Positions 5,114-21,887 of a stretch of 64,000 nt of DNA are shown here, in pieces. The translations under genes were made by a program, and so were the position numbers. Numbering within the stretch: the first letter of the stretch is position 1; every line of letters starts with the position of its first letter. The notes under the pieces are model-generated. The model ran no database searches. It had not been told where the DNA came from and was given only the letters and a program-made list of their open reading frames with translations. The DNA comes from Starkeya sp. ORNL1 (GTDB lineage: Bacteria > Pseudomonadota > Alphaproteobacteria > Rhizobiales > Xanthobacteraceae): NCBI RefSeq assembly GCF_012971745.1, contig NZ_CP048834.1:5279001-5343000 (forward strand), read 5' to 3'.

Positions 5114-5133
5114 TTATCAGTCGATAAATAAAC
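5114..5133. promoter_or_regulatory. Operator site 1: TTATC-AGTC-GATAA
   Basis: TTATCAGTCGATAAATAAAC. Perfect 5-bp arms with a 4-bp spacer, 19 bp from the VOC start and about 100 bp from the HisD-like start. Site 2 of the same type lies 76 bp away in the same divergent promoter region. Shares the extended arm CGATAAATAA with sites at 5190, 12117 and (reverse strand) 17610. Confidence 0.7.
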
Positions 5134-5189
5134 CTCTGCGACCGGCTTGGCAAGCCCGCTGTCCGGCTTGACATCGGGGTCCGCTTTAG

Positions 5190-5208
5190 TTTTCACTCGA
5201 TAAATAAG
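5190..5208. promoter_or_regulatory. Operator site 2: TTTTC-ACTC-GATAA
   Basis: TTTTCACTCGATAAATAAG, 28 bp upstream of the HisD-like start codon. Four of five left-arm bases match the consensus and the right arm CGATAAATAAG is complete. Confidence 0.65.
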
Positions 5209-5235
5209 AGGCGCTCGCAGCGCCGGGAGGAAATC

Positions 5236-6552
5236 ATGGCTCGCCATCTGAAGACCGCGCGCTCGGCAACCGAGCGGGCCGACGCCGACGCCAAGGTCCG
5301 CACCACCGTCGAGGGGATTCTTGCGGAAATCGAGGCCGAGGGCGACGCCGCGGTGCGGCGCTATTCCGAGCGCTTCGATCATTGGTCGCCGGCGAGCTTC
5401 CGCCTCTCCGCGCAAGAGATCGAGGCGGCGCTGTCCAAGGTCTCGAAGTCCGACCTCGACGATATCCGCTTCGCGCAGGCGCAGGTGCGCAATTTCGCCG
5501 AGAAGCAGCGCGCCTGTCTCACCGACCTCGAGGTGGAGACGCTGCCGGGCGTCATTCTCGGGCACAAGAACGTGCCGGTGGCACGCGTCGGCTGCTACGT
5601 GCCGGGCGGCAAGTATCCGATGGTCGCCTCCGCCCATATGAGCGTGGTCACTGCCAAGGTCGCCGGCGTGCCGAGCGTGGTCGCCGCCGCGCCGCCGTTC
5701 CAGAATGGGCCGCATCCGGCGATCGTCGCCGCCATGCATCTCGCCGGCGCCGACGAGATACTCGTGCTGGGCGGCATCCAGGCGGTGGCGGCGATGGCGC
5801 TGGGAACCGAGAGCGTCGCGCCGGTGGACATGCTGGTCGGGCCCGGCAATGCCTTCGTCGCCGAGGCCAAGCGCCAGCTCTATGGCCGCGTCGGCATCGA
5901 CCTGTTCGCCGGCCCGACCGAGACGCTGGTCATCGCCGACGACACCGTCGATGCCGAAATCTGCGCCACCGACCTGTTGGGCCAGGCCGAACATGGGCCG
6001 ACCTCGCCGGCGATCCTGCTGACCAATTCGGAGAAGCTGGCGCGCGAGACGCTGGCCGAGGTGGAGCGGCTGCTGACCATCCTGCCGACCGCGGAGATCG
6101 CCTCCGCCTCCTGGCGCGATTTCGGCGAGGTGATCGTCTGCGACAGCGTGGAGGAGATGGTGCGCGAGGCCGACCGCATCGCTTCCGAGCATGTGCAGGT
6201 GATGACCGCCGATCCGGACTATTTCCTCAACAACATGCGCAATTACGGCGCGCTGTTCCTCGGCCCGCGCACCAATGTCGCCTATGGCGACAAGGTGATC
6301 GGCACCAATCACACGCTGCCGACCAAGCGCGCGGCGCGCTACACCGGCGGGCTGTGGGTCGGCAAGTTCATCAAGACCTGCACCTATCAGAAGGTTACCA
6401 CCGACGCGGCGAGCGCCATGGTCGGTGAATACTGCTCGCGGCTGTGCGTGCTCGAAGGCTTCCTCGGCCATGCCGAGCAGGCGAATGTGCGCGTGCGCCG
6501 CTATGGCGGCGGCAATGTCCCCTATGCCGGGGCGGCAGCGAAGGCCAGCTGA
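5236..6552 (+). CDS. HisD-like zinc alcohol dehydrogenase (HpsN-type rather than histidine biosynthesis)
   Basis: 438 aa, the length of histidinol dehydrogenase. Zinc and catalytic residues of HisD are all recognisable: GQAEHG (Gln and His ligands), [13 protein letters not shown] (Asp ligand plus His), SEHVQV (catalytic Glu-His) and the late His in EGFLGHA. The substrate-side motif is [11 protein letters not shown]. HisD paralogs of this kind include HpsN, which oxidises sulfopropanediol, and other diol or amino alcohol dehydrogenases. No his gene is nearby. Divergent from the VOC operon with two operator-like palindromes in the shared 140-bp promoter, it belongs to the same regulon. RBS is GGGAGGAA before ATG. 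A strong terminator follows, so it is probably monocistronic. Confidence 0.85.
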
Positions 6553-6584
6553 AACTTCCCTCGATCTGGACCCTTCCCCTGGCT

Positions 6585-6614
6585 GGCCGGAGCGATGAGC
6601 TCCGGCCTTTTTTC
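6585..6614 (+). terminator. Rho-independent terminator of the HisD-like gene
   Basis: GGCCGGAGC, loop GATGA, GCTCCGGCC, then TTTTTT. The loop and half-stem are repeated in the terminator at 12147-12175. Confidence 0.9.
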
Positions 6615-6666
6615 TTTGTGCAGGTGGATGCGAGCGGACGGATCTGTCATCACACCTTGAGGTAAA

Positions 6667-6774: not shown

Positions 6775-6852
6775 CGGGCGTTGCCCGTCCGCGACCGGAC
6801 ACAGTCGGGTCATCGGCTCAAGCTTCAGCTCTTGCGCAACATGACGAGTGCC

Positions 6853-6933: not shown

Positions 6934-7079
6934 GATCACCCTGCTTCAGTGAAGAAGCACCGATGCATCAAGACAGAAGCACTGACATATCTGACTGACG
7001 TTTCGAGTACGCCGCAAGACGTTTGATTTTGCGTGCTTTGTTCGTTGATTTCCTTGTGTGATGCTGCATCGCAGCGACG

Positions 7080-7093: not shown

Positions 7094-7115
7094 GTGGCAT
7101 CTCCTCATCTCTGTC

Positions 7116-7823
7116 ATGTTGACGTTATCGGTCGATCAATATAGCCTTCCTGATATTCCACGAAGGGTCGCTTCGGCTATGAACCTCGTTCGCAACAGGG
7201 TCTATGAGTTGGTCCGGCGGGAGATCCTCTCCTGCTCGATCCGGCCCGGCGCCGAGCTGCGGGAAGCCGATCTGGCGGTGCGCTTCGGGGTCTCGAAGTC
7301 GCCGGTGCGCGACGCCATGCAGAAGCTGGAGCTGGAAGGCCTCGTCGAGATCGAGCCGCGGCGCGGGCATCGCGTCCGTCCGATCTCGATCAAGGACGCC
7401 GAGGACATGCTGGAACTGCGGCAGATCCTGGAGAGCGCCTGCGTGCGCAAGGTCGCCACTGTCGCCTCCGATGCGGAGCTCAAGGCACTCGACCGTTATC
7501 GCGATGCCGATCGTTCCTCCGTGCCCGTGTTCGTGGAATACAACCGCAATTTCCACCACCATCTCGCCGTGCTGTCGCAGAACCACCGTCTGGCGGAGGA
7601 GACGCGGCGGGTGATGGATCTCTATGAGCGGCTCTGCATGGTGAGCCTCTCGGCCATTGGCGATCCCGGCGGCTCGGAAGGGCCGCTGCGCGACCACAAT
7701 GAGATCATCGATGCGCTGCAGGCGCGCAACGGCAATGCCGCGGCGCGGGTGGTGCGGCGTCACGTCGGCAAATCGCAGAGCCAGATCCTGCGTGCGCTGG
7801 AAAGCCGGTCGATCGTCGCCTGA
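7116..7823 (+). CDS. GntR-family regulator, FCD subfamily
   Basis: 235 aa from 7116; an internal ATG at 7179 (MNLVRNRVYEL) gives 214 aa and begins closer to the winged helix, and neither start has a clear RBS. DNA-binding motifs: REILSCSIRPGAELREADLA, FGVSKSPVRDAMQKLELEGLV, RRGHRV. The FCD domain carries LELRQILE, then metal-ligand histidines in NFHHHLAVLS, DHNEII and RRHVGKS. It precedes an ABC importer operon in the same direction with a 181-bp gap, and is probably its regulator, responding to the imported compound or an intermediate. Confidence 0.88.
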   Translation: MLTLSVDQYSLPDIPRRVASAMNLVRNRVYELVRREILSCSIRPGAELREADLAVRFGVSKSPVRDAMQKLELEGLVEIEPRRGHRVRPISIKDAEDMLELRQILESACVRKVATVASDAELKALDRYRDADRSSVPVFVEYNRNFHHHLAVLSQNHRLAEETRRVMDLYERLCMVSLSAIGDPGGSEGPLRDHNEIIDALQARNGNAAARVVRRHVGKSQSQILRALESRSIVA

Positions 7824-8004
7824 CGACCGCCGGTCGAGAGAAGGCGCCTGCGAACAAAGGCGCCCGCGAGCAATCAACTAAAGGGAACTGCCGAGGACCG
7901 GTCCGCTTGAAGCCCGGCATCGGCGCAGGAAACACCCACGTCGTCCCAACGCCGCTCCGGGCGAATGCACCCGGTTGCGCGTTCGGCGAGGAGGAGCCGA
8001 ATAT

Positions 8005-8811
8005 ATGAATGCTCTAGCCGCCAACATCATCCCGGCCCGCACGGCCCCAGCGCCGCTGGCCGACGATGCCGTCATCTCCGCCACGGGGGTGGCCAAAGTC
8101 TTCAATCGCGACGTCGTCGCACTGGAGAGCGCCAGTTTCGACATCAAGCGCGGCACCTTCGTTTCGCTGGTCGGGCCGAGCGGCTGCGGCAAGTCGACCT
8201 TGCTGCGGCTGATCGCCGGGCTGATCGGCAAGACCTCCGGCAGCCTCGACGTGCTGGGCCGGCAAGTGAACGGGCCATCCCCCGATGTCGGCATGATGTT
8301 CCAGCGCCCGACCTTGCTGGAATGGCGCACGGCGGTGGAGAACGTGCTGCTGCCCACCGAAGTTCGCGGCACGCCGACCGGCGCCGACAAGGAGCGCGCC
8401 ATCGATCTCCTGCGCCTCGTCGGCCTCAAGGATTTCGAGTTCGCCTTTCCGCGCCAGCTGTCCGGCGGCATGCAGCAGCGCGTCGCGCTCGCTCGCCTGT
8501 TGCAGACCGGGGCGAAGATCCTGCTGCTCGACGAGCCGTTCGGCGCGCTCGACGAGTTCACCCGCGAGCGGCTGAACCTCGAATTGCTGCGCATCGTCGA
8601 CGATGTCGACGCAACCACGCTCTTCGTCACCCACAACATCTCCGAGGCCATCTTCCTCGCCGACCAGGTGATGGTGATGACGCCGCGTCCCGGCCGTCTG
8701 GCCAAGATCGTCGATGTGCCGTTCGCCCGTCCGCGCGAGATCTCGCTGATGCAGACGCCGGCCTTCAACGAGATGGTCTCGGAAGTCCGTTCCATCCTGG
8801 GAGGGCATTGA
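8005..8811 (+). CDS. NitT/TauT-type ABC transporter ATP-binding protein
   Basis: 268 aa; ATG at 8005 follows GAGGAGGAG. Walker [11 protein letters not shown]-loop MFQRPTLLEW, signature LSGGMQQR, Walker [13 protein letters not shown] and H-loop VTHN are all present. The family (SsuB/TauB/NrtD-like) powers import of sulfonates, nitrate, aromatic acids or thiamine precursors. It is followed after one base by the permease and then the binding protein. The first ~25 residues are unusually Ala/Pro-rich. Confidence 0.9.
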   Translation: MNALAANIIPARTAPAPLADDAVISATGVAKVFNRDVVALESASFDIKRGTFVSLVGPSGCGKSTLLRLIAGLIGKTSGSLDVLGRQVNGPSPDVGMMFQRPTLLEWRTAVENVLLPTEVRGTPTGADKERAIDLLRLVGLKDFEFAFPRQLSGGMQQRVALARLLQTGAKILLLDEPFGALDEFTRERLNLELLRIVDDVDATTLFVTHNISEAIFLADQVMVMTPRPGRLAKIVDVPFARPREISLMQTPAFNEMVSEVRSILGGH

Positions 8812-8812
8812 G

Positions 8813-9679
8813 ATGAGCCTTGCCACGAATGATTCCTTTGCCGGCGTCGTAGATACCGGAACTCCGCGCGGCGTCGTGCTCGGGCGTGTCGCCCGCCACC
8901 TGGCGCTGTTCCTCTCGATCATCGCGGTTTGGGAAGCCTCCAGCGCCTTCGGCCTGGTCGACTCGCTCATCCTGCCGCGGCCGAGCGCGATCGTGGTCGC
9001 GCTGTGGGACATGCTCTTCGTGCGTGGCAATGCCTGGTACCATATGGGCATCACGCTGTGGGAGGCGCTCGCGGGCTTCGTCATCGGCTCGGTGGTCGGC
9101 ATCTTGCTCGCGGTCGCGGCGGGCCTCAGCGAGACTTTCCGGCGTTACATCTCGCCTTATGTGATCGTGCTGCAGGTCATTCCGCGCATCGCGCTGGCGC
9201 CGATCATCATCGCCTGGCTCGGCTTCGGCACCAGCCCGAAGATCGCCATCGGCGCCTTGATCTGCTTCTTCCCGCCCTTCATCAATACATTGACCGGACT
9301 CATCAATATCGATGAGGACGCGCACGAGATGTTCCGCTCGATCGGCGCCAAGAAGAGCCAGATCTTCTTCAGCCTGATGCTGCCGAGCGCCATGCCGATC
9401 ATCATGGCCGGCCTGAAGGCGGCGATCTCGCTGGCTTTGATCGGCGCCATCGTCGGCGAATTCATCTCCGCCGGCGAAGGCATGGGCGTACTGATGCAGC
9501 GCTACAGCTTCGCGCTGAACATGGCCGCCTCCTTCGCCGTGCTGGTGATGCTGACCGTGGTCGGCTACCTGCTCTTCATGGCCATGGAGAAGGTCGACGA
9601 CCACCTCGTCTACTGGCGCAACGACGCCCGCATGGCGGCGATGAGCCGGAAGCGTGCCAAGGCTTGGCGGACCCGCTAG
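8813..9679 (+). CDS. NitT/TauT-type ABC transporter permease
   Basis: 288 aa, six hydrophobic segments; the EAA loop is FRSIGAKKSQIFFSLMLPSAMP. SsuC/TauC family. Translation is coupled to the ATPase gene (one-base gap, GGGAGG before the start). The C-terminus is basic (MSRKRAKAWRTR). Substrate follows from the binding protein and is unknown. Confidence 0.9.
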   Translation: MSLATNDSFAGVVDTGTPRGVVLGRVARHLALFLSIIAVWEASSAFGLVDSLILPRPSAIVVALWDMLFVRGNAWYHMGITLWEALAGFVIGSVVGILLAVAAGLSETFRRYISPYVIVLQVIPRIALAPIIIAWLGFGTSPKIAIGALICFFPPFINTLTGLINIDEDAHEMFRSIGAKKSQIFFSLMLPSAMPIIMAGLKAAISLALIGAIVGEFISAGEGMGVLMQRYSFALNMAASFAVLVMLTVVGYLLFMAMEKVDDHLVYWRNDARMAAMSRKRAKAWRTR

Positions 9680-9774
9680 AGCATGTTCCGCAAAAGTTGA
9701 AGACTTTTGCGAGAAGAACATGCTCCAGCAACCAAAGTCGCTTCCTTCGGATGGCTCATCCGAAGGAAGGGTTT
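9677..9774. repeat. Class E paired short palindromes, copy 1
   Basis: Two hairpins: GAGCATGTTCCGCAAAAG with its inverted partner ending GAACATGCTC, then CTTCCTTCGGATGGCTC with its inverted ATCCGAAGGAAG. They lie between permease and binding-protein genes of one operon, where a stem can protect upstream mRNA or lower downstream levels. Related copies: 28130-28243, 34671-34785, 59717-59823, and part at 51427-51460. Confidence 0.65.
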
Positions 9775-9856
9775 GGGGACCGCCACGCAGACTGACGACC
9801 CTGACATTCCACGTCCAATGAAACGGCGCGCAAAGCGCCGATGGGAGGAACTTGCC

Positions 9857-10930
9857 ATGTTGAAGGGATCTAAAATGATTGCTGGCAAACTATCAGCCGG
9901 TCTCGCCACGGTGGCGCTGGCGGCACTGATGCTGCCCGCTGGCATCACCGAGGCCGGGGCGCAGAAGCTGCGCACCGTCAATGTCATCATGCCGCTGCCG
10001 CGCTCGGCGAATTTCTATCCGATCGTCGCCGGCGAGGCGCTCGGCTATTTCAAGGACGAGGGCATCGAGGTCAATCTGCTGCCGTCCTCGACCACGGTTC
10101 CCTATGTCGCCTTCGTGCAGAACGGCCAGGCCGAGCTCGCCATGCTCGACGCGCCGCAGACCTTCCAGGCGGTGCAGGCCGGCATCAAGATCAAGACCAT
10201 CTATGAAGCCCACCAGAAGGCACCGGAAGGCATCGCCGTGCTCGCCGACAGCCCGGCGCAATCGGTGGCCGACCTGAAGGGCAAGACCGTCGGCCTCGTC
10301 AGCGACCGCGACCTCGTCACCCTCACCGTCGCGCTCAACACCAAGAACATTCCGATCTCGGATGTGAAGACGGTGGTGGTGGGTGATGCCGGCCCGACGC
10401 AGGCCACCGCCATGAAGAACGGCACCGTGGCGGCGATCGCCGGCGCGACGCCGGACTGGCTGTCGCTGCAGGCCGCCGGCATGAAGATCCGCCTCATCAC
10501 CCCGCCGGAAGTGGCCGAGCAGCCGGCCAATTCCTTCGTGGTGTCGGCTGCGCGGATGGATGAGCTGCGCAAGACGATGGAAGGCTTCTTCCGCGCTTAT
10601 TCCAAGGGCATGGAGGTCGCCAAGATCGACCCTGGCGTGCTTGCCGCCATGTGCAAGAAGGCGGTGCCGGAAGAGTGGCCGAACGACGCCTTCGGCCAGG
10701 AATTCCTCAACGCCTCGATCGAGCTCGCCTATTCCACCACCAAGAAGCTCGGCGATCTGCAGCCGGAGGTGTGGAAGGCCGTGCAGCCGCCGCTGGTGAA
10801 GATCGGCGAGCTGAAGGCGGAGATCGATCCGGCGACCTTCCTCGACGCCTCGATCATCGGACCGGCGAACGACTTCTCGCGTGACAAGGTCAAGGCCGAC
10901 GTCGCCGCCTGGAAAGCCAAGAACATGTGA
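9857..10930 (+). CDS. ABC transporter substrate-binding protein (NMT1/SsuA-like)
   Basis: 357 aa. ATG at 9857 follows GGGAGGAA. N-terminal signal peptide: basic MLKGSK, hydrophobic LSAGLATVALAALML, likely cleavage near EAGAQ-K. The mature part is a type II binding fold: YPIVAGEALGYFKDEGIEVNLLP, NGQAELAMLD, LKGKTVGLVSDRD. It delivers an unidentified anion or aromatic compound to the importer encoded just upstream. Following the gene after ~100 bp is an amidohydrolase that may act on the imported compound. Confidence 0.88.
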   Translation: MLKGSKMIAGKLSAGLATVALAALMLPAGITEAGAQKLRTVNVIMPLPRSANFYPIVAGEALGYFKDEGIEVNLLPSSTTVPYVAFVQNGQAELAMLDAPQTFQAVQAGIKIKTIYEAHQKAPEGIAVLADSPAQSVADLKGKTVGLVSDRDLVTLTVALNTKNIPISDVKTVVVGDAGPTQATAMKNGTVAAIAGATPDWLSLQAAGMKIRLITPPEVAEQPANSFVVSAARMDELRKTMEGFFRAYSKGMEVAKIDPGVLAAMCKKAVPEEWPNDAFGQEFLNASIELAYSTTKKLGDLQPEVWKAVQPPLVKIGELKAEIDPATFLDASIIGPANDFSRDKVKADVAAWKAKNM

Positions 10931-11027
10931 TCGGCGACATGTGATCGACGGCCGGCGGCGCTGGTCTCCCGCGCCGCCGGCCCTTCTGCAGGACGCTTGC
11001 GAGGACGCTCAGTTCAAGGACGCATTC

Positions 11028-12119
11028 ATGGACCACAGCATCATCGATACCGAGACGCTCGGCGGCAATGTGAACCGCTATGGGCCGACCTCGGCCCGCC
11101 CGCCCGCACTGAGCCCGGCGCGGCTGAACACCACGACGGTGGACATCCACGCCCATGTCGGCGTGCCGGAGGCGGCGGCATTCATCCAGCCGCATCTCGA
11201 TGTCAGCACCATCGCGATGGCGAAGTACTCGAACGAGGAAACCCGCGCCGTCAATCAGCGCCAGGACCAGGATCGCGCCACTGCGATGGTCGACATCGAC
11301 GACCGCATGAAGGTGCTCGACAAGCTCGGCATCGACATTCAGGTCGTCGCGCCGCCGCCGTTCCAGTGCTACTACACGGTCGATCCCGAATACGCGGTAC
11401 CCGCCTCGCGCATGGTGAATGACGGCGTCGCCGCCTTCGTGGCGAAGCGCCCCGATCGCCTCGCCGGGCTCGGCACCGTCGCCTTGCATGATCCCGCATC
11501 CGCCGTCAGCGAACTGGAGCGCGCGGTGAAGGAGCTCGGCCTCAAGGGCGTGCAGCTTCTCACCAATGTCGACGGGCGCGAACTGTCTTCGCCCGAGTTC
11601 GAGCCGGTCTTCGCCAAGGCCGAGGAGCTCGGCGCGCTGATCATGATTCATCCCAACGGCTTCACCGGCGGCGAGCGCTTCACCCGCTTCTATTTCAGCA
11701 ATGTCATCGGCAATCCGCTAGAGACCACGGTGGCGTTGCACTACCTCATCTTCGACGGCGTGCTGGAGCGGCACCCGAAACTGAAGCTGCTGGCGGTGCA
11801 TGGCGGCGGCTTCCTGCCCGCCTATTCCGGGCGCATCGACCATGCCTGGGGCGCGCGCAAGGATTCCAATGGCAGCCTGCCGCGCCCGCCGAGCGAATAT
11901 CTGCGCCGGGTCTATTTCGACACCGTGGTGTTCACCCCGCACCAGCTCAAATACCTGGTCGAGACCTATGGAGCGGACAAAATCGTGCTCGGCACCGACT
12001 ATCCGTTCGACATGGCCGAGTACGACCCCGTAGGCCATGTGCTGAGCGTCGAGGGCTTCTCTGACGAAGTCCGCGCCAAGATCGCGGGCGGCACCGCGAA
12101 GGCGCTGCTGGGCTTGTGA
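11028..12119 (+). CDS. ACMSD/gamma-resorcylate decarboxylase-like amidohydrolase
   Basis: 363 aa, Amidohydro_2 family. Metal motifs: DIHAHVG near the N-terminus (HxH), HPNGF (third His), HGGGFLPAYSGRI (fourth His) and GTDYPFDM (Asp). Members decarboxylate aromatic or muconate-type acids (ACMSD, LigW, 2,6-dihydroxybenzoate decarboxylase) or hydrolyse lactones. ATG at 11028 follows AAGGA; upstream frame is not needed. Last gene of the GntR-ABC unit before a terminator. A decarboxylation step in the local catabolic route is plausible; substrate is not known. Confidence 0.85.
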   Translation: MDHSIIDTETLGGNVNRYGPTSARPPALSPARLNTTTVDIHAHVGVPEAAAFIQPHLDVSTIAMAKYSNEETRAVNQRQDQDRATAMVDIDDRMKVLDKLGIDIQVVAPPPFQCYYTVDPEYAVPASRMVNDGVAAFVAKRPDRLAGLGTVALHDPASAVSELERAVKELGLKGVQLLTNVDGRELSSPEFEPVFAKAEELGALIMIHPNGFTGGERFTRFYFSNVIGNPLETTVALHYLIFDGVLERHPKLKLLAVHGGGFLPAYSGRIDHAWGARKDSNGSLPRPPSEYLRRVYFDTVVFTPHQLKYLVETYGADKIVLGTDYPFDMAEYDPVGHVLSVEGFSDEVRAKIAGGTAKALLGL

Positions 12120-12135
12120 TCGGACGATAAATAAG
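12117..12135. promoter_or_regulatory. Operator site 3: TGATC-GGAC-GATAA
   Basis: TGATCGGACGATAAATAAG begins at the amidohydrolase stop codon and ends 69 bp before the deacetylase start. Right arm CGATAAATAAG is complete, left arm four of five. The terminator just downstream lies between this site and the deacetylase, so its role as a promoter element is less certain than at the other sites. Confidence 0.5.
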
Positions 12136-12146
12136 CGAGCCTATCC

Positions 12147-12178: not shown

Positions 12179-12203
12179 TCATGTGACATGCCCGGACAGC
12201 ATC

Positions 12204-13079
12204 ATGAGCAAATTGAGCGACCGCGCGCCCTATCAGGCGTTCGTGGACCGGCCGAGACTGCATCTGCCGAACGACGCCCGCCTCGCCGTGTGGGTGATCG
12301 TCAATGTCGAGGAATGGTCGATCGAGCGGCCGCAGCCGCGCACCGTGCTCCCGGCGCCGATGAGCCAGCCCTTGATGCCGGACCTGCCGAACTGGGCCTG
12401 GCACGAATACGGCATGCGGGTCGGCTTCTGGCGCATCCTGAGCGCGCTGGAGAAGCGCGGCATCCGCGCCACGTTTGCGGTCAATGGAAATGTCATCAAC
12501 TCGTATGAGCGCGTCGCCGGGGCCGCGCGCGATGCCGGCTGGGAGTTCATGGGCCACGGCTTCGTGCAGCGGCCGATGCATCATCTGGAAGACCAGCGAA
12601 AGGCGATCTTCGACACGGTGGACACCATCCGCGCCTTCACCGGCAAGATTCCGCCAGGCTGGGAAAGCCCGGGCCTCACCGAGAATGAGGAGACGCTGGA
12701 CCTGCTGAAGGAGGCCGGCATCGGCTATGTCGCCAACTGGGTGATCGACGACCTGCCGCTTGAGCTTGCCACCCGGCACGGCCCGATCCTCTCGGTACCC
12801 TATACGGTAGAGACCAACGACATCGTGGTTCATGCCGTGCAGCACCAGCCGTCGGACGGCTTCAAGCGGCGCTCCATCGACCAGTTCGACCGGCTGTGGG
12901 AGGAGGGCGCGGAGAACGCCAGGGTGATGGCGATCAGCACGCACCCGTACCTGACCGGCGTGCCGCACCGCATCCGCTATTTCGAGGAGTTGCTGGATTA
13001 CGTGCTGGCGCGGGAGAAGACCGCGGTGATGACCGGCGAGGAGATCGCCGACTGGTATCGCGAGGCGATGGCGGGGTGA
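12204..13079 (+). CDS. Polysaccharide deacetylase-family (PuuE-like) hydrolase
   Basis: 291 aa from ATG 12204; a GTG at 12183 would add seven residues. NodB-homology features: the acidic motif in VNVEEW, ALEKRGIRATFAVNG, GHGFVQRPMHH (His pair) and ISTHPYLTG at the end. Members without signal peptide and with this layout act on small amides such as allantoin rather than on polymers, so an amidase role in the local pathway is reasonable. No signal peptide is visible. No neighbour follows on this strand; the next 100 bp is a dispersed repeat. Confidence 0.85.
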   Translation: MSKLSDRAPYQAFVDRPRLHLPNDARLAVWVIVNVEEWSIERPQPRTVLPAPMSQPLMPDLPNWAWHEYGMRVGFWRILSALEKRGIRATFAVNGNVINSYERVAGAARDAGWEFMGHGFVQRPMHHLEDQRKAIFDTVDTIRAFTGKIPPGWESPGLTENEETLDLLKEAGIGYVANWVIDDLPLELATRHGPILSVPYTVETNDIVVHAVQHQPSDGFKRRSIDQFDRLWEEGAENARVMAISTHPYLTGVPHRIRYFEELLDYVLAREKTAVMTGEEIADWYREAMAG

Positions 13080-13944: not shown

Positions 13945-14784
13945 TCAGCGCCGCGATTCCGGGTGCCAGATCAGCAGGCGGCGGCGCACCAGTTCCAGGC
14001 TCTTTACCACGATGAAGCCGAGAATGATGATCTCGACGATGCCGGCGAACACGCCGACGGAATCGGCAAAGCGCCCGGCCATGATCATGGTGCCGCCGAT
14101 ACCGCGCCCGCCCATCAGCATCTCGGTGACGATGGTGGTGATCATGCCGGTCGGCAGGGCCACCTGGAGGCCGGTCAGGATCTGCGGCATGGCCATGGGC
14201 AGGTAGACCTCCCACAGCAATTCGCGGTCCCTGGCGCCCATCGAGCGGGCCGACCAGATCGGCCATTTGTCGATGCCCATGCAGCCGGCATAGGTCGCCG
14301 AGACGATGGGGAAGAAGCAGGCGAACGCCACCATGATGATCTTCGAGGTGTCGTAGATGTCGAACCACAGGATGAAGATCGGGAGGAAGGCGATCTTCGG
14401 CATCGGGAAGCCGATGGAGACCAGTGGATCGAAGAACCAGCGGACCAGCGCCGAGCGCGCCATCAGGATGCCGACCGGGATGCCGACCACGGCGCCGATA
14501 AAGAAGCCGAGCAGCGCGCGATAGAGCGTCAGCCCAAGATCGATGAAGACGGCGCCGGTGGCGACGTCGTCGCCGAGCCGTTCCAGCACGGTGGAGAGCG
14601 GCGGCAGCAGGAACGGGTTGATCGCGCCATAGCGGGCGCCGAACTCCCAGATCGCCGCCAGCGCAACGATGACCCCGATCTGCACGCCGGTGTCGACCAG
14701 CTTGGGCGAGATGTGCCGGCGCGGCGGCGGGGTCTTCTGCTCGGGCGTGTGCGCGAGCGGGTGGGCCTCGGCCATCTGCATCAT
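13945..14784 (-). CDS. ABC transporter permease, second of two
   Basis: 279 aa, SsuC/TauC type. EAA loop: SMGARDRELLWEVYLPMAMP. Long hydrophilic N-terminus (AEAHPLAHTPEQ, then PPPRR) before the first membrane segment. ATGATG at 14784 overlaps the upstream permease stop (ATGA) and follows GGAGAGAGG. With 14781-15596 it makes a heteromeric membrane pair, less usual in NitT/TauT systems, which generally encode one permease. Confidence 0.9.
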   Translation of the reverse strand: MMQMAEAHPLAHTPEQKTPPPRRHISPKLVDTGVQIGVIVALAAIWEFGARYGAINPFLLPPLSTVLERLGDDVATGAVFIDLGLTLYRALLGFFIGAVVGIPVGILMARSALVRWFFDPLVSIGFPMPKIAFLPIFILWFDIYDTSKIIMVAFACFFPIVSATYAGCMGIDKWPIWSARSMGARDRELLWEVYLPMAMPQILTGLQVALPTGMITTIVTEMLMGGRGIGGTMIMAGRFADSVGVFAGIVEIIILGFIVVKSLELVRRRLLIWHPESRR

Positions 14785-15596
14785 GCCTCTCTCCAGCGCA
14801 GCAGCCTGCGCACCAGCACCGCATAGCCGCGATCCGCCGCGAAGCCGATGGCGGCGACGAAGAAGATCACCGCGAACATGCCGGGATAGAGACCGCCATC
14901 GCCGAGCGAGGAGATCATGTAGCCGACGCCGTCGGTGGCAATGACGAACTCCGAACTCACCATCAGGATGAAGGAGAAGGCGAGCGCGGTGCGGCAGCCG
15001 CTGAGGATGTCCGGCATCGCCGCCGGCAGCACCACCTCGCGCAGCACCTCGATGCGCGAGGCACCGAGGCTGGCGGCGGACCACAGCAGGAACGGGTTCA
15101 CGCCGCGGGCGCCGTTGTAAGTGCCGACCACCACCGGCAGCAGGCAGCCGAGGAAGATCAGCAGGATTTTCGAGGAATCGCCGAGGCCGAGCCAGATCAT
15201 CACCACCGGGATCAGCGCCGATTTCGGCATCGGGTAGAAGATCTGCACGATCGGGTTGAGCAGCAGCCGCACCGAACGGAACGTCGCCATCAACAGGCCG
15301 ATCAGCATCCCGACTACGATGGCGCAGCCGAGCCCGGCCGCGGCGCGGCTGATCGAGCGCGCGGTGTTGTAGAGCAGGTCGCCGGTGAACAGCATGCGGA
15401 AGAATTCGGAGCCGATCTCGCCGAGGCCGGGCAGCATCTGCTTGGCGACGAGGCCGGACAGCCCGAGGAACTCCCACAGCACGCACAGGACGAGGATCGG
15501 CGAGAAGCGCAGCGCCACGTTCAGGAGGCCGAACAGCGCGCCGTTGCCGCCGCTGGTGCCGCCACCGCGCGAAGGGGTGATGACCGCATCCGCCAT
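14781..15596 (-). CDS. ABC transporter permease, first of two
   Basis: 271 aa, SsuC/TauC type with six predicted membrane segments. EAA loop: SLGASRIEVLREVVLPAAMP. The Gly-rich N-terminus (SRGGGTSGGNG) is probably disordered. Start overlaps the ATPase stop (TGATG). Sequence clearly differs from its partner permease, so the pair is not a recent duplication. Confidence 0.9.
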   Translation of the reverse strand: MADAVITPSRGGGTSGGNGALFGLLNVALRFSPILVLCVLWEFLGLSGLVAKQMLPGLGEIGSEFFRMLFTGDLLYNTARSISRAAAGLGCAIVVGMLIGLLMATFRSVRLLLNPIVQIFYPMPKSALIPVVMIWLGLGDSSKILLIFLGCLLPVVVGTYNGARGVNPFLLWSAASLGASRIEVLREVVLPAAMPDILSGCRTALAFSFILMVSSEFVIATDGVGYMISSLGDGGLYPGMFAVIFFVAAIGFAADRGYAVLVRRLLRWREA

Positions 15597-16426
15597 CAGT
15601 GTGCCCCCCGCGTCGCCGCCACCGCCTGTTCGCGCACCAGCCGCCAGATCTGCTCGCTCAGCTGGATAAAGCGTTGGTCCTCGAGGATTTCCTCACCGCG
15701 GTCCTTCGGCAGGTCGACATCGATGATGTGCTGGATGCGGCCGGGGCGTGCGCTCATGATGGAGATGCGGTCGGCGAGGAACACCGCCTCCTGCACGTCA
15801 TGGGTGACGAACACCACGGTCTTGCGGGTACGCCGCCAGATCGCGCGCAGCTCTTCCTGCATGACGCGCCGGGTCTGCGCGTCGAGCGCGCCGAACGGCT
15901 CGTCCATCAAGAGGATGCGCGGGTCGATGGCGAGCGTGCGTGCAATGGCAGCGCGTTGCTGCATGCCGCCGGACAGCTGCGAGGGGTAGGAGTTCTCGAA
16001 GCCGGTGAGATGGACCATGTCGATATAGTCCTGTGCCCGCTTTTCCCGCTCCGCGGCGTTGAAGCCGGCCTTCTTCAGGCCGTAGAGCACATTGTCCTTC
16101 ACCGTCTTCCAGGGAAACAGCGCGAAGTTCTGGAACACGATGCTGCGATCCGGGCCCGGTGCGAAGACCGGGCCCTTCTCGGTGATGATCTGACCCTGCT
16201 GCACCGGGATGAAGCCGCCAATGAGATAGAGCAGCGTGCTCTTGCCGCATCCCGACGGGCCGAGCAGCGCGTGGAACTCGCAATCGCGGATGTCGAGATT
16301 GATGCGATCGAGCGCCAGCACGCCCTGCGTGGCGCGACCACCATAGGTGTGGGACACATCATTGATGGAGATGCCGCCGGGAGCGGCCTCGAGGGCGGGC
16401 TTCAACTTGGGAGCAGCCATCATCAT
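15596..16426 (-). CDS. NitT/TauT-type ABC transporter ATP-binding protein
   Basis: 276 aa from the first of three consecutive ATGs (16426, 16423, 16420). Walker [13 protein letters not shown]-loop [12 protein letters not shown], signature LSGGMQQR, Walker [14 protein letters not shown]-loop [11 protein letters not shown]. Overlaps the binding-protein stop. Second gene of a five-gene operon (binding protein, ATPase, two permeases, unknown protein). Confidence 0.92.
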
Positions 16427-17451
16427 TGACCGGCCTCGATGCGACGCTGGGCCTCCTTCACGAAGGAAAGGTCGACATAGTTCGGGTCGATGGTGATGCC
16501 CTTCGGCGCCAGGCCGAGATCGACGGTGAGGTTGATATTATCCTGCAGCGTCTTGAGGTTCGGCACCATGAAGGGATCACGGTAATAGTCGTCCTTGGAG
16601 AACAGGTAGGACAGCGTCTCCGGCGGCTGCTGCATGAAGTTGGCGACGATCTTCACCGCCTCGTCATGGTTCTTCGGATCGGTAAACCAGCGCACGGCGC
16701 GTATGTGGTCCTCGAAGAAATCCATCAGCGCAGCGCGGTTGGCGTCGAGGAACTTGCCGTTCGCGGTGAGGAAGACCAGCTCGGACGGGCCGATGGCGTC
16801 CTTCGAGGTGAACAGCACCTTGTACTTGCCGCTGGCGAGCATCTGGCCGGACATCGGCTGCAGCACGGTGCCGAGGTCGATCTTGCCCTCGTCGAGCATG
16901 GCCGGAATGTTGGGGAAGGCGACCTCCACCATGGTGAAGTCGCGCTTGTCCTGCATGCCCTTGGAGCGGAACATGGCGCGGATCGCGGTGTCGGAGGCCG
17001 AGCCGATGGCATTGGTGCCGATCCGCTTGCCCTTCATGTCCTCCAGCTTGGTGATGCCGGAATCGGCGCGCACCATGAAGGTCTCGGAATGCGAGTCGCC
17101 GACGCCGTCCTGGATGATGTCGGCCACCACCTTGGCGTCGATCCGCGCATTGTTCACCGCGAGCGCCAGCGTCAGCGCGCCGAACGCGGCCATGTCGATC
17201 TCGCCCGCCGCCATCGCCGCGATCTGCGGGGAGGAGCCGCGGAAGCGGATCGGCTCCACCGTGTAGCTCTTGCCGTAATGCTTGAGGATCTCCGGCTTGG
17301 AGTAGAGCACCGGGATCATGTGGCCCGGCATGGTGGACCAGCCGATCCGGATCTTGACCGGGTCGGCCTTCGCCACATCGGGGGCCGCGGTGGTGAAGGT
17401 CAGCGCGGCAAGCGCCGCCGCGAACGCAATTGCGCCCGTTATTCTCGCCAT
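16423..17451 (-). CDS. ABC transporter substrate-binding protein
   Basis: 342 aa. Signal peptide MARITGAIAFAAALAALTFT with cleavage probably after the VAKAD region. Mature fold as in SsuA/TauA: RIGWSTMPGHMIPVLYSKPE, RGSSPQIAAMAAGEIDMAAF, MKGKRIGTNAIGSASD. First gene of the operon, RBS GGGAGA. Operator site 4 lies about 160 bp upstream in the 363-bp gap, linking this importer to the VOC/HisD/cyclase units. Ligand unknown. Confidence 0.88.
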   Translation of the reverse strand: MARITGAIAFAAALAALTFTTAAPDVAKADPVKIRIGWSTMPGHMIPVLYSKPEILKHYGKSYTVEPIRFRGSSPQIAAMAAGEIDMAAFGALTLALAVNNARIDAKVVADIIQDGVGDSHSETFMVRADSGITKLEDMKGKRIGTNAIGSASDTAIRAMFRSKGMQDKRDFTMVEVAFPNIPAMLDEGKIDLGTVLQPMSGQMLASGKYKVLFTSKDAIGPSELVFLTANGKFLDANRAALMDFFEDHIRAVRWFTDPKNHDEAVKIVANFMQQPPETLSYLFSKDDYYRDPFMVPNLKTLQDNINLTVDLGLAPKGITIDPNYVDLSFVKEAQRRIEAGQ

Positions 17452-17603: not shown

Positions 17604-17623
17604 GCTTATTTATCGGTAGATAA
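17604..17623. promoter_or_regulatory. Operator site 4: TTATC-N4-GATAA (perfect)
   Basis: Plus strand GCTTATTTATCGGTAGATAA; on the minus strand it reads TTATCTACCGATAAATAAGC, matching sites 1-3 including the extended arm. It lies in the 17452-17814 gap upstream of the second importer operon. Nothing else convincing was seen in that gap. Confidence 0.7.
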
Positions 17624-17814
17624 TCCTGTAGATTTTCGATCATGTCAACGATGGAAAGACGAAACGCAACTCTTTCGAATAGAGCAGGAAAGCACCGCGA
17701 CATCGTCTTCCGACAAGTTTGCAGACGCACGAATGCAGGCGGCGCGCGACTTGCGCACCACCTGCGATTCCGGTCCCAAATCTTCGTGAACGGAGGTGGT
17801 GCCGACCCCGCCGC

Positions 17815-18573
17815 TCACCGACCGCCGGAGACCGGCACTACGGCGGAGGTCACATAGGCGGCCGCCGGGGAGGCGAGCCAGAGCACCACCTCGGCCACTT
17901 CCTCCGGTTCGCCGGGCCGTCCCATCGGTACGTTGGGGCCGAGGCGCGCCAGCCGGTCCGGGGCGCCGGCGGCGGCGTGGAGGTTGGTGGCAATGAGGCC
18001 GGGCGCCACCGCATTGACGCGGATACCTTCGCCGGCGACCTCGCGGCCGAGGCCGAAGGTCAGGCTGTCGACCGCGCCCTTGGTGGCGGCGTAGTGGATC
18101 CACTCGCCGGCGCCGCCGAGTTCCGCGGCGCGCGAGGACATGTTGACGATGACGCCGCCGCGTCCGCCACGCTTGGTCGACATGCGCTTCACCGCCTCGC
18201 GGCAGCAGAGAAAACTGCCGGTGACATTGATGGCGAGGACGTCATTGAGCGTCTGCGCGCTTACCTGTTCGAGGCGGCCGAGCGGGCCGACCACGCCGGC
18301 ATTGTTCACCAGCACGTCGGGTGCGCCGAAGGTGCTGTCCACCTCCTCGAACAGCCTGATGATGTCGGCCTCGAGGGCGACGTCGCCATTGACGATGAGC
18401 GCCTTGCCGCCCGCCGCCTCGACCTCGCCGGCCACCGCCCTGGCGCCCTCAAGGTCGCCCTTGTAGGTGAGCGCGACATTATAGCCGGCGGCTGCCGCGG
18501 CCCGGCAGATGGAGGCGCCGATGCCCTTCGAGCCGCCGGTGACGATCATGGTTTTACGCGCGGTCTCGCTCAT
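17815..18573 (-). CDS. Short-chain dehydrogenase/reductase (FabG-like)
   Basis: 252 aa. NAD(P) motif TGGSKGIG, NNAG, catalytic Ser in NMSSRAAE and Tyr-Lys in YAATKGAVD. The C-terminus ends VVPVSGGR. Lys/Arg positioning for NADP preference is not decisive. Nine bases downstream of the Gfo/Idh gene and co-directional, so co-transcribed. The likely role is oxidation of a hydroxyl intermediate. Confidence 0.88.
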   Translation of the reverse strand: MSETARKTMIVTGGSKGIGASICRAAAAAGYNVALTYKGDLEGARAVAGEVEAAGGKALIVNGDVALEADIIRLFEEVDSTFGAPDVLVNNAGVVGPLGRLEQVSAQTLNDVLAINVTGSFLCCREAVKRMSTKRGGRGGVIVNMSSRAAELGGAGEWIHYAATKGAVDSLTFGLGREVAGEGIRVNAVAPGLIATNLHAAAGAPDRLARLGPNVPMGRPGEPEEVAEVVLWLASPAAAYVTSAVVPVSGGR

Positions 18574-18582
18574 GCTCGGTCC

Positions 18583-19593
18583 TCAATTGATAGGGATGAA
18601 GCGATCCTGGCCGACGGCGGCGACGATCGCCTCGAACACCGCCACGCCGTGGATCATCTCGCTATGGGAAATCGGGTAGGGCGCTCCGTCATCAGTGGCG
18701 CGGGCAAAGGCTTCGAGTTCGGCGCGCACCGTGTCGGCGTCGGTCACCTCGAAGCTCACCAGCGGCTTCGGCACCGGTTTGGCCGAGACCGGCCCATCGG
18801 GAGCAGGCTGGAACAGGAAGCTCGCCAGCGACGGCTTGCTGATCTCGGCGACGCCCTTCGAGCCATAGGCAGCGAAGCGATAGGTCGGCGTCGTCGCATT
18901 CATGGTGAGCAGCGAGCCGGTGGCGCCGGAGCGGAAGCGCAGCAGCACCGAGGTGGTGTCGTGCAGGCCGGACGGCGCGGCGCGGCTGACGCTCTGGCAG
19001 GCGACCGTCTCGATCTCGCCGAACAGGTCGATCATGGCGTCGACCAGATGGATGCCCATGCCGGTCATGCCGCCGGCGGGTGACTGTTCCGGATCGGTGC
19101 GCCAGATGCCCTTGGGCAGGAACAGCCCGCTCGGTCCGCTCATCACCGTCTCGACATGGAGGATGGTGCCGAGTTCGCCCTCGCGCACCATGTCGCGCAG
19201 CCGCGTCATGTTCGGATGGAAGCGGCGATTATGGCCAAGGCCGAGCGTGACGCCTGCGGCCTCGACCGCACGCACCGCGGCCTCCGCGCTTTCCTTCGTC
19301 ATGGTGAAGGGCTTCTCGACGAAGACATCCTTGCCGGCGAGCGCCGCCGCTTCGACCTGGCTGGCGTGGTCGAGATGCGGGGTGGCCAGCACCACCGCAT
19401 CGATCGACGTGTCGGCCAGCACCGCCTCATAGCTGTCGAACAACGCGATGCCGGCCTTCTCCGCATACTCCGCCGCCTTCTCGCGGGTGCGGGTGGCGCC
19501 GGCGGTGAAGCGTATGTCGGCGCTCTTGCCCTGGACGGAATCGACCAGCGTGCGCCCCCACCAGCCCATTCCCACGATCGCGGCGTTCAGCAT
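18583..19593 (-). CDS. Gfo/Idh/MocA-family oxidoreductase
   Basis: 336 aa. N-terminal Rossmann fold GMGWWGRTL and the family signature EKPF (VFVEKPFTM), followed by GHNRRFHP and the C-terminal alpha/beta domain with GGMTGMGIHLVDA, where the His is the usual catalytic position. Members act on sugars, inositols, biliverdin or other cyclic alcohols. It starts downstream of a class A repeat that separates it from the BKACE gene. Confidence 0.88.
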   Translation of the reverse strand: MLNAAIVGMGWWGRTLVDSVQGKSADIRFTAGATRTREKAAEYAEKAGIALFDSYEAVLADTSIDAVVLATPHLDHASQVEAAALAGKDVFVEKPFTMTKESAEAAVRAVEAAGVTLGLGHNRRFHPNMTRLRDMVREGELGTILHVETVMSGPSGLFLPKGIWRTDPEQSPAGGMTGMGIHLVDAMIDLFGEIETVACQSVSRAAPSGLHDTTSVLLRFRSGATGSLLTMNATTPTYRFAAYGSKGVAEISKPSLASFLFQPAPDGPVSAKPVPKPLVSFEVTDADTVRAELEAFARATDDGAPYPISHSEMIHGVAVFEAIVAAVGQDRFIPIN

Positions 19594-19630
19594 GCATGTT
19601 CTCCAGCAAGTAAGTGCGTTCTGCGGTGGG

Positions 19631-19738
19631 CATCCTTCGAGGCTCGCTTGCCGCTCGCACCTCAGGATGACGTGGCTCTCCCGGAGGATAGAACCAACGT
19701 CATGCTGAGGTGCCGCCCGCAGGGCGGCCTCGAAGCAC
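19631..19738. repeat. Class A palindromic repeat, copy 2
   Basis: CATCCTTCGAGGCTCGC..CACCTCAGGATGACG and the inverted AACGTCATGCTGAGG..CCTCGAAGCACG arm, the second with two base changes. It lies between the Gfo/Idh and BKACE genes of what would otherwise look like one operon. Confidence 0.8.
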
Positions 19739-19752
19739 GCAGGCCCGCAATA

Positions 19753-20685
19753 TCAGAACGCCACCTTGTCCGGACCCTTGAGCTCTAGGATCTCGCGCGC
19801 CTCGTCCGGCGACGCGAGCTCCAGCCCCATGCCTTCGAGGATCTGCCGCGCCTTGCGCACCTGGTCGCCGGAGGAAGTGGCGAGCTGGCCCGGGCCAAGC
19901 CAGAGCGAATCTTCCAGCCCGACGCGCACATTGGCGCCCATCGAGGCGGCCATGGCGGCGATGCGCAGCTGCGAGGCGCCGGCACCCAGCACCGACCAGC
20001 GATACTTGTCGCCGAACAGCCGGTCGGCGGTGCGCTTCATGTGGATGATGTCTTCGGGATGCGTGCCGATGCCGCCGAGAATGCCGAACACCGACTGCAC
20101 GAACAGCGGCGGCTTCACCAGCCCGCGGTCGAGAAAGTGTTTGAGATTATAGAGATGCGCGATGTCGTAGCACTCGAACTCGAAACGCGTGCCATTATCG
20201 TAGCAGGTCTCAAGAATATACTCGATGTCCTTGAACGAGTTGCGGAAGACAAGGTCGCGCGTGGCTTCGAGATGCTGGCGCTCCCACTCGAACTTGAAGT
20301 CCTTGTAGCGGTCGAGCAGATGGTAGAGGCCGAAATTGATCGAGCCCATGTTGAGCGAGGCGACTTCCGGCTTGTAGGTCGCAGCGGGGAGCACGCGCTC
20401 CTCGACCTTCATGTAGGGGCTGCCGCCGGTGGTGATGTTGATGGCGGCGTTGGTCTGCTGCTTGATCTGCGGCAGGAAGCGGCCGAACGCCTCGGGCGTC
20501 TGGTCGGGCTTGCCGGTTTCCGGATTGCGGGCGTGCAGATGCAGGATCGCCGCGCCGGCCTCCGCTGCGCCGACCGCGTCGGCGATGATCTGGTCCGGCG
20601 TGATCGGCAGATGCGGCGACATTGACGGGGTATGGATCGCGCCCGTGCAGGCGCAGGTGACAATGACCTTTCGGGCGGCGGCCAT
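19753..20685 (-). CDS. BKACE-family beta-keto acid cleavage enzyme (DUF849)
   Basis: 310 aa; ATG at 20685 follows GGAGAGAG. Known signature elements of the Kce/BKACE family: TCACTGAIHTPSMSP at the N-terminus (His ligand), LHLHARNPETG (HxH zinc ligands), NITTGG, SLNMGSINF and the late acidic residue in VGLEDSLWL. These Zn enzymes condense a beta-keto acid with acetyl-CoA and release a CoA thioester plus acetoacetate. Here it implies the pathway generates a beta-keto acid. It is followed by Gfo/Idh and SDR genes and preceded by the cyclase-family gene. Confidence 0.9.
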   Translation of the reverse strand: MAAARKVIVTCACTGAIHTPSMSPHLPITPDQIIADAVGAAEAGAAILHLHARNPETGKPDQTPEAFGRFLPQIKQQTNAAINITTGGSPYMKVEERVLPAATYKPEVASLNMGSINFGLYHLLDRYKDFKFEWERQHLEATRDLVFRNSFKDIEYILETCYDNGTRFEFECYDIAHLYNLKHFLDRGLVKPPLFVQSVFGILGGIGTHPEDIIHMKRTADRLFGDKYRWSVLGAGASQLRIAAMAASMGANVRVGLEDSLWLGPGQLATSSGDQVRKARQILEGMGLELASPDEAREILELKGPDKVAF

Positions 20686-20756
20686 GGCTCTCTCCGATAT
20701 AATCAGGACAGGGAAACGGCGGCGGTGGATCCGCCGCCGCAAGAGTGTGGCTGGCG

Positions 20757-21710
20757 CTATTTGAAGGCCTGCGGATTGATCGGCGAGCCGGTGCCGCCGG
20801 TGATGATGAGCGGCGGGCCGCAGAAGAAGAATTCATAGACGCCATCGGCGGCGCAGTCTTCGGCGAGTTCCTTCACATAGAAGATCTCGCCCATGCACAG
20901 TCCCATCGCCGGGATCACCACCCAGTGCCAGGGCTGGTTGGCCTCGTCGGTCTCGTTCGGCCGCACCTCGACACCCCAGGTGTCGGAGCAGATCGCGGCG
21001 ACCTGCTTTTCCTGGCACCAGTAGCAATTCTCGAACTTCACGCCGGGCGCGTCGCCGCCGGCATAGCCGCCCCACTCGCCCTCCTTGAGGCAGCGTTCCA
21101 TCTGGCCGGTGCGGATGATGACGAAGTCCGCCTTGCGGATCTCCACGCCCTGCTTCTTCGCGCAGGCGTCGAGCTCCTCATTGGAAATGCTCTCGCCGTC
21201 CTGCAGCCAGTCGACGCCGCGGTAGCGGGCAATGTCGAGAAGCACGCCGCGCCCGCTCATCTTCGACTTGGAATGCTCGATGCCGAGCACCGAGAGGCCG
21301 CGCGAGTCGATCAGCTTGGCGTCATGGCCATTGTAGGCCTTGTCCTCATAGAAGACATGACCGAGCGCGTCCCAGTGGGTGGCGCCCTGCACGCACAGGT
21401 TCAGCGTATCGTCGGCGTAGCGGATCTTGTTCCAGTCCTGCTGGCCGGAGATGGCGTCGGTGCCGGTGGCGAGCATCTGGTGGATCGGGTTGAAGCGGCC
21501 GCCGAACAGGCCGTTCTGCGGCCCGTCGCGATCGAGCGGGATGCCGAGCGCGAACACCTTGCCCTTCTTCACCAGCCTGGCGGCCTCGACCACGTCCTGC
21601 GGCGTCACGTGATTGAGGGTGCCGCTATGGTCGTCCTCGCCCCAGCGCCCCCAATTGGAAAGCTTCTTCGAGGCTTCTTCGATGGCGGCCCTGCCGACCT
21701 TGATGTCCAT
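20757..21710 (-). CDS. Cyclase-family metal-dependent hydrolase (PF04199)
   Basis: 317 aa; ATG 21710 follows AGGGAGA. The metal motif HxGTHxDxPxH appears as QGATHWDALGH, so the first His is replaced by Gln and the Pro by Leu; a later H in GIEHSKSKMSGRGVLLDIARYRGVD and the C-terminal PWHWVVIPAMGL are in the usual places. The family includes kynurenine formamidase and isatin hydrolase, which open an amide or lactam. Operator site 5, a perfect palindrome, lies 162 bp upstream. It probably opens a ring or amide before BKACE cleavage. Confidence 0.88.
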   Translation of the reverse strand: MDIKVGRAAIEEASKKLSNWGRWGEDDHSGTLNHVTPQDVVEAARLVKKGKVFALGIPLDRDGPQNGLFGGRFNPIHQMLATGTDAISGQQDWNKIRYADDTLNLCVQGATHWDALGHVFYEDKAYNGHDAKLIDSRGLSVLGIEHSKSKMSGRGVLLDIARYRGVDWLQDGESISNEELDACAKKQGVEIRKADFVIIRTGQMERCLKEGEWGGYAGGDAPGVKFENCYWCQEKQVAAICSDTWGVEVRPNETDEANQPWHWVVIPAMGLCMGEIFYVKELAEDCAADGVYEFFFCGPPLIITGGTGSPINPQAFK

Positions 21711-21871
21711 GGGATCTCCCTGCCGTTTCACTGTGTGAGTTCGGGCGATGGCAGGGCGAGAGGGCGCACGCCGGCACTGCTCCGCGTCGCGCAGAGGCGA
21801 CCGGAACCGGCGTCACTTCAGTCCTCCCGCACCGCCGTTTGCCGACGATGTTTCATCTTGCGGATGATTGT

Positions 21872-21887
21872 TTATCGTCCGATAAAT
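21872..21887. promoter_or_regulatory. Operator site 5: TTTATC-GTCC-GATAAA (perfect)
   Basis: Six-base arms, the best copy in the window, in the 407-bp divergent region between the cyclase-family gene (start 21710) and the enol-lactonase-like gene (start 22118). A half-site CCGATAAAC follows at 21936-21944. It could serve either direction. No other feature was seen in this gap. Confidence 0.72.

Follow-up and report, generated by a model that had tools for sequence, protein, structure and literature searches.

The genome of Starkeya sp. ORNL1 consists of one contig of 6,286,188 bases (6.29 Mb), from which we analyzed a stretch of 64,000 nucleotides (C1:5279001-5343000; hereafter the window, counted from its first base). 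The window carries genes for a VOC-family protein, a flavin monooxygenase, a HisD-like dehydrogenase, two ATP-binding cassette (ABC) importers, a cyclase, and regulators of the TetR and GntR families (Table 1), and copies of a short palindrome, TTATCNNNNGATAA (TTATC-N4-GATAA), recur among them over a 17-kb cluster. A preliminary description had read five such sites as marking the promoters of a regulon most likely run by the TetR-family protein encoded at 2639-3337. Our comparisons support that assignment: the palindrome follows one TetR subfamily across genomes, and it persists where GntR2, or both GntR genes of the window, were not found. We consider it highly probable, from sequence comparison, that the palindromes are operators of this TetR protein, which would repress the local promoters until released by a pathway compound.

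Palindrome copies in the window and the genome

Palindromes are present at all five positions first described (5114, 5190, 12117, 17610 and 21872), and in the orientation used there the fourth spacer base is C in every one. The 5-bp arms, said to be identical, are so at 5114, 17610 and 21872, but the left arms at 5190 and 12117 read TTTTC and TGATC. The longer right arm, CGATAAATAA, does recur in four sites (5114, 5190, 12117 and, on the minus strand, 17610), but the full palindrome is longer and symmetric: the 22-bp consensus derived from the exact sites of TetR loci, TTATTTATCRNNYGATAAATAA, is symmetric, so the arm is half of a longer palindrome. Scoring the window with this consensus, which was built from exact 14-bp sites in the 80 loci described below, near relatives included, places six cluster sites on top, with 18, 18, 17, 16, 15 and 14 of 20, followed by a shifted reading of the 17610 site (13) and then by unrelated places (12). 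The sixth site, TTATCGGTCGATCA at 7125-7138, had been overlooked, contrary to the statement that the remaining matches were coding coincidences.

Across the 6.29-Mb genome, TTATCNNNNGATAA has three exact copies, at 5114, 17610 and 21872, all in the cluster, and the reversed control pattern has none; the exact form does not occur at random frequency. When one mismatch is allowed, the palindrome has 26 places and the control 17, with six of the former inside the cluster; the off-cluster single-mismatch places are therefore near background. Twelve of these 20 places were examined (L004-L015; L and G numbers denote loci and genomes), and 11 of the 12 are covered by an open frame of more than 90 codons, a weak indication given the G+C content. 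We rejected a regulon extending over the genome, as exact sites were found only within the cluster. Inside the window, TTATCNNNCGATAA at up to two mismatches has 16 matches, counting both strands, against a shuffle mean of 3.9, and none of 100 shuffles reaches 16. The operator sequence was not found in the literature searched with the palindrome written in a few forms, a scope that most subscription journals lay outside.

Table 1. Genes, putative operators and promoter elements in the window, with variant palindromes of other loci in the last row
Feature	Position	Strand	Core or sequence	Remarks
TetR-family regulator, predicted binder	2639..3337	-		TetR_N; tracks palindrome in relatives
Flavin monooxygenase, HsaA / HPA-hydroxylase C2-like	3393..4604	-		NCBIfam HsaA 315 bits (cut-off 450); PDB 2rfq, 2jbr
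VOC-family protein (possible dioxygenase)	4601..5095	-		Pfam Glyoxalase
Operator 1	5110..5131		5114-5127 TTATCAGTCGATAA	VOC-monooxygenase-TetR promoter (minus strand); exact arms
-35-like element of VOC promoter	5148..5153	-	TTGCCA	-10-like TATTTA 17 bp on, within operator 1
-35 element of HisD-like promoter	5168..5173	+	TTGACA	Position 16-18 bp on falls in left arm of operator 2
Operator 2	5186..5207		5190-5203 TTTTCACTCGATAA	HisD-like promoter (plus strand); one mismatch
HisD-like dehydrogenase	5236..6552	+		Nearest solved relatives sulfopropanediol/DHPS dehydrogenase
Operator 3	7121..7142		7125-7138 TTATCGGTCGATCA	Before GntR2; one mismatch
GntR/FCD regulator GntR2	7179..7823	+		Predicted target, not binder
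ABC importer 1 (ATPase, permease, NMT1-type binding protein) and ACMSD-like decarboxylase	7975..12119	+
Weak candidate site	12117..12130		TGATCGGACGATAA	Overlaps ACMSD-like stop codon; one mismatch
Polysaccharide-deacetylase-fold hydrolase, PuuE-allantoinase-like	12183..13079	+
ABC importer 2 (two permeases, ATPase, NMT1-type binding protein)	13945..17451	-
Operator 4	17606..17627		17610-17623	ABC importer 2 promoter (minus strand); exact
Promoter of importer 2	17620..17648	-	TTGACA-17-GATTAT	Overlaps operator 4; 10/12 consensus matches
SDR, GFO/IDH oxidoreductase, BKACE and cyclase (PF04199) genes	17815..21731	-
Operator 5	21868..21889		21872-21885 TTATCGTCCGATAA	Between cyclase and alpha/beta-hydrolase genes; exact
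-35 element of cyclase promoter	21908..21913	-	TTGACA	-10 position at edge of operator 5
Alpha/beta-hydrolase, HIBADH-like (Pfam), then SDR (from translation)	21983..24577	+
GCTAA variant pairs	L104:19211-19304, L112:10664-10757, L113:12812-12905, L139:16694-16779, L148:18437-18530

Linkage between the palindrome and a TetR subfamily

The candidate regulator contains a TetR_N domain (PF00440, 54.9 bits with a cut-off of 24), and its AlphaFold2 monomer model, a predicted structure, has ten helices at a mean predicted local distance difference test score (pLDDT) of 86, which is compatible with an all-helical fold. No curated NCBIfam TetR equivalog, such as those for FasR, TetR, AcuR, RutR, KstR or BetI, fits it: the best scores 41.4 bits against a cut-off of 330, and the protein stays below the cut-off of each of the 17 models listed. 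Solved structures match at no more than 48 bits. Two distant TetR paralogues in the same genome (G000:C1:4347056-4347658 and 3402219-3402827; 184-185 bits) have no palindrome at up to one mismatch in their stretches.

Relatives were searched in one genome per species with an alignment of nine TetR proteins, namely the window's own and eight from genomes picked by an 18-bp form of the palindrome, and the best 80 of 454 loci were fetched with up to 10 kb on each side (1.45 Mb). The exact palindrome occurs in 54 of these 80 loci (67 sites) and the control palindrome in none; at up to one mismatch there are 214 sites, compared to 7 for the control. Because the query proteins had been chosen around palindrome carriers, this count and several of those that follow were repeated without the seeds. 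Leaving out the six loci whose TetR is at least 95% identical to a query row, the exact form is found in 48 of 74 loci and a site with at most one mismatch in 73. By a rough call of open reading frames, 60 of the 67 exact sites lie outside genes, and the gene starts within 400 bp of them belong mainly to cyclase (26), VOC (22), monooxygenase (17), HisD-like (13), TetR (7) and OsmC-like (7) genes. Sites recur before orthologous genes in several lineages.

Linkage also depends on how closely a TetR protein resembles the query. A search of 198 family genomes yielded 94 TetR matches at E <= 1e-40. Sites that fit TTATCRNNYGATAA number 59, distributed over 39 genomes, and those that fit the control pattern 20, in 19 genomes. 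Among TetRs scoring at least 281 bits (n = 25), 19 have TTATCRNNYGATAA within 5 kb and 21 within 25 kb; the same class without the nine query proteins (n = 16) has 11 and 13. None of those at 250-281 bits (n = 12) has a site nearby, and among those below 250 bits (n = 57) the figures are one and three. Counted from the sites, 34 of 59 lie within 25 kb of a TetR of at least 281 bits. By genome, 19 have both TetR and site, 3 the TetR only, 20 the site only and 156 neither (Fisher p = 5e-13, and p = 3e-8 without the nine seed genomes); because the genomes are related, these p values are not true probabilities. The 20 site-only genomes are about what the control pattern would give, and G104 was scored as having a TetR without a site, its site TTATCTTTTGATAA falling outside the R/Y form.

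The TetR proteins were also grouped by a recognition-helix signature. We inspected 101 distinct TetR proteins, 96 of which carry TRxLAxxLxxTQPLLYRYF (loosely written), a signature that is partly built into the sample because the locus scan used the peptide QPLLYRYF. When one mismatch is allowed, 89 of the 96 have a site within 3 kb (82 of 89 without seeds); for nine control palindromes the highest count is 12 of 96. Sixteen of the stretches had been hand-picked among TetR matches, with and without sites; when these and the seeds are excluded, the count is 74 of 77.

At greater distance, TetR genes on plasmids of Bosea (L159, 46% identity) and Paraburkholderia graminis (L161, 41%) adjoin one-mismatch sites, and the reach of the operator may thus extend to Betaproteobacteria; two further homologues of about 40% identity (L160, L162) have no site next to the gene. 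In Rhodobacteraceae-like loci we also observed variant palindromes that end in GCTAA rather than GATAA and are paired 72-80 bp apart (Table 1), perhaps a second operator class.

Promoter layout and rival explanations

The HisD-like, importer-2, cyclase and VOC promoters each have a TTGACA or TTGCCA, oriented toward the gene, and the -10 position 16-18 bp further on overlaps the operator or adjoins it. Conservation was followed through the VOC-HisD gap in an alignment of the window with ten relatives (L085 excluded). All 11 gaps share the arms of operator 1 while its four spacer bases vary, and the CAAG adjoining the VOC -35 element (5151-5154) is invariant or nearly so. Operator 2, as TTTTCACTCGATAAA, is invariant with its spacer included, unlike operator 1, and so is the TTGAC upstream of it; its imperfect left arm is perhaps kept since it doubles as part of the -10 element. 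In L085, the operator-1 equivalent is TTATCTTCCGATCA, with one mismatch, and the operator-2 equivalent is intact. Operator 4 is exact in all five relatives covering its region (G062, G165, L078, L079, L082), and operator 5 in both relatives covering the cyclase-hydrolase gap.

The core of operator 3 ends 40 bp before ATG 7179, the probable start of GntR2 because the homologue in the relative G062 aligns from about there. TTGACG abuts this operator directly. Near relatives conserve the site: of eight loci with a close GntR2, six have a copy with no more than one mismatch ahead of that gene, and L085 and L086 have none. L106, which has a GntR2 at 48% and no site, was not counted among the eight. 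Between HisD and GntR2, no inverted repeats of at least 14 bases were found.

Of the five sites originally proposed to mark promoters, those at 5114, 5190, 17610 and 21872 have promoter-like elements and are conserved before orthologous genes, while the site at 12117 does not look like a deacetylase promoter and is conserved in one of six loci. The nearest relative, L076, retains the latter with a change at three of its four spacer bases, and five further loci that share the gene pair (L077, L080, L081, L083, L085) show no site at up to one mismatch. It is unlike a promoter of the deacetylase gene because the stop codon of the ACMSD-like gene falls inside it and a terminator-like stem, at 12146-12170, stands between site and gene. 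Such stems number 12 in 5000-22100, against 7.7 expected. The stem behind the HisD-like gene (6585-6607) and that behind the ACMSD-like gene (12146-12170) have the loop region GCGATGAGCTCC in common.

We propose repression because the operators overlap or abut the -10 position at four promoters. A TetR dimer would bind TTATTTATCRNNYGATAAATAA and block RNA polymerase at the VOC-monooxygenase-TetR, HisD-like, ABC importer 2 and cyclase promoters, and probably at the GntR2-importer-1 promoter as well; a pathway compound, perhaps an intermediate, would then release it. As the TetR gene is third behind operator 1, in a VOC-monooxygenase-TetR order that is kept in relatives, TetR should also repress itself.

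If a GntR/FCD protein rather than TetR bound the palindrome, GntR2 would be the natural candidate, including at its own promoter: the conserved site 40 bp before its start is what autoregulation would give. However, the 25 GntR2 homologues of about 40% identity in other genomes have no exact site within about 1.5 kb on either side and a single one-mismatch site (L023); G165, from the same genus, has no GntR2 match at E <= 1e-30 and keeps the sites; and of the 80 TetR loci, 12 contain GntR1 or GntR2 in the stretch and 44 of the 68 others have the exact palindrome. As the palindrome does not track GntR2 across genomes, we rejected it as the binder, a role that is very improbable. GntR1 (1663-2433, CsiR-like) adjoins the TetR gene here and in 8 of the 80 loci, all eight with an exact palindrome, but the other 72 fetched stretches, in which it was not found, include 46 with the exact palindrome. 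This distribution led us to reject GntR1 too, and we rate its chances lower still than those of GntR2.

Two further explanations were weighed. TetR may bind but activate, or a LysR protein or GntR2 may be the main switch with TetR only tuning. LysR genes do accompany TetR in 20 of 80 loci, and GntR2 is apparently a target, making a cascade possible; the operators, however, overlap or abut the -10 position at four promoters and are not upstream of the -35, and none of the 20 profiled window proteins is a LysR, so that we consider such arrangements unlikely. That the palindrome is chance, or a dispersed AT-rich repeat with no regulatory role, would fit its single-mismatch copies in the genome, which are not far above control (26 vs 17). 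Against this stand the exact copies, just three in 6.29 Mb and all in the cluster, the arms that stay invariant while the spacer of operator 1 changes, and the breadth of the linkage to TetR loci (54 of 80 exact, control 0); the probability of this explanation is negligible.

The reading of the palindromes as operators of TetR has points against it as well. Eight of the nine query TetRs came from palindrome-picked genomes, so that the subfamily was defined around carriers, and 25 of the 59 family TTATCRNNYGATAA sites lie more than 25 kb from a TetR of at least 281 bits, close to the control count of 20. Seven of the 96 signature TetRs have no site within 3 kb even with one mismatch allowed; TetRs without the signature have such a site in none of five cases, only five having been inspected. 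The site at 12117 fits poorly and is doubtful. The -10 hexamers are weak at the HisD-like, cyclase and VOC promoters, and the alpha/beta-hydrolase gene has no upstream site at up to one mismatch in L084-L086, where it has no cyclase neighbor. On plasmid pRL8, discussed below, no site at up to one mismatch precedes the HisD-like gene, and TetR goes unmentioned in the passages of PMC3333776 that concern us here. Finally, repression is read from promoter layout alone, and binding of TetR to the palindrome is taken from genomic linkage. Nevertheless, the prediction of a TetR regulon appears sound and well supported by genome comparison, and it describes a known kind of system; the preliminary description most probably saw a real operator and named the right protein.

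Cluster function and comparison with known systems

The families of the genes behind the sites suggest breakdown of an aromatic, perhaps N-heteroaromatic, acid. These genes had been said to have no obvious function in common; judging by the gene families, they may plausibly serve to take up and degrade an aromatic or N-heteroaromatic compound, and therefore need not be unrelated. Searches of families, PDB and literature returned no matching pathway. The binding protein of importer 2 was named by Pfam, and its permeases and ATPase from their translations. Beside this importer, the protein encoded at 13207-13926 has no Pfam match at 0.001 and is conserved in relatives at 42-76% identity. Recurrent neighbors of TetR in the 80 loci are molybdenum-hydroxylase subunits (37 to 48 loci each), luciferase-like monooxygenases (40), flavin reductases (34), the cyclase (30) and the HisD-like gene (25), counts that refer to the stretches as fetched, many of which were truncated at contig ends. 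The operator can serve as a precise search tag for a catabolic regulon of Xanthobacteraceae and other Alphaproteobacteria that is apparently undescribed, and it tells which genes of the cluster belong together.

A comparable region is pRL80021-80038 on plasmid pRL8 of Rhizobium johnstonii 3841 (L156). Its TetR belongs to the subfamily (48% identity), cyclase and SDR genes lie alongside, and a HisD-like gene is about 6 kb away; unlike the window, the region has a molybdenum hydroxylase (CoxMSL-like) and a HAAT-type importer in place of the VOC/flavin monooxygenase and NMT1-type importers. Exact-arm palindromes, at L156:14881 and L156:15780, flank its TetR gene, one between TetR and the cyclase and one between TetR and moaA. 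By gene order, pRL80036 would be the cyclase and pRL80035 the TetR gene. Passages of one report describe pRL80036 and pRL80037 as elevated in the pea rhizosphere, and give pRL8 coxMSL and importer mutants as those tested for competitiveness (PMC3333776). The TetR next to pRL80036 is thus a sensor candidate, at least for the cyclase and SDR genes described there as elevated. It may explain the cyclase-SDR and molybdopterin genes and not the whole region, because no site at up to one mismatch precedes the coxMSL, importer or HisD-like genes; neighboring coxMSL and importer genes are not explained by the operator alone.

More tentatively, and at odds that we would place somewhat below even, one TetR subfamily with a nearly fixed 22-bp operator may govern a widespread, modular catabolic system. 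The regulator, cyclase, HisD-like and SDR genes would be its constant part, while the first ring-attacking enzyme (flavin monooxygenase plus VOC, luciferase-like, or molybdenum hydroxylase) and the importer would be exchanged from one lineage to another. As its signal, the regulator would recognize a downstream intermediate common to a family of plant-derived heteroaromatics, and part of the pea-specific pRL8 induction would depend on this sensing.

Individual enzymes of the window have described counterparts. HpsN / (R)-DHPS dehydrogenase (PDB 8v35 and 8wwe) is the nearest solved relative of the HisD-like protein, at 402 and 387 bits; the neighboring genes in the window are presumably not those of sulfopropanediol catabolism. 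The amidohydrolase, monooxygenase and deacetylase-fold proteins have ACMSD, HsaA / HPA-hydroxylase C2 and PuuE, respectively, among their closest relatives of solved structure, although the monooxygenase falls below the cut-off of the HsaA model. We know of no single pathway that combines ACMSD-, HsaA/HPA-hydroxylase- and PuuE-like genes.

As a regulatory system, the cluster most resembles those of TetR-family repressors of local catabolic operons such as RutR, AcuR and KstR. Unlike these, the TetR of the window lies below the cut-off of every curated equivalog model listed; like them, it has a TetR_N domain, a predicted short palindromic operator over promoters, and its own gene in the operon that it would regulate.

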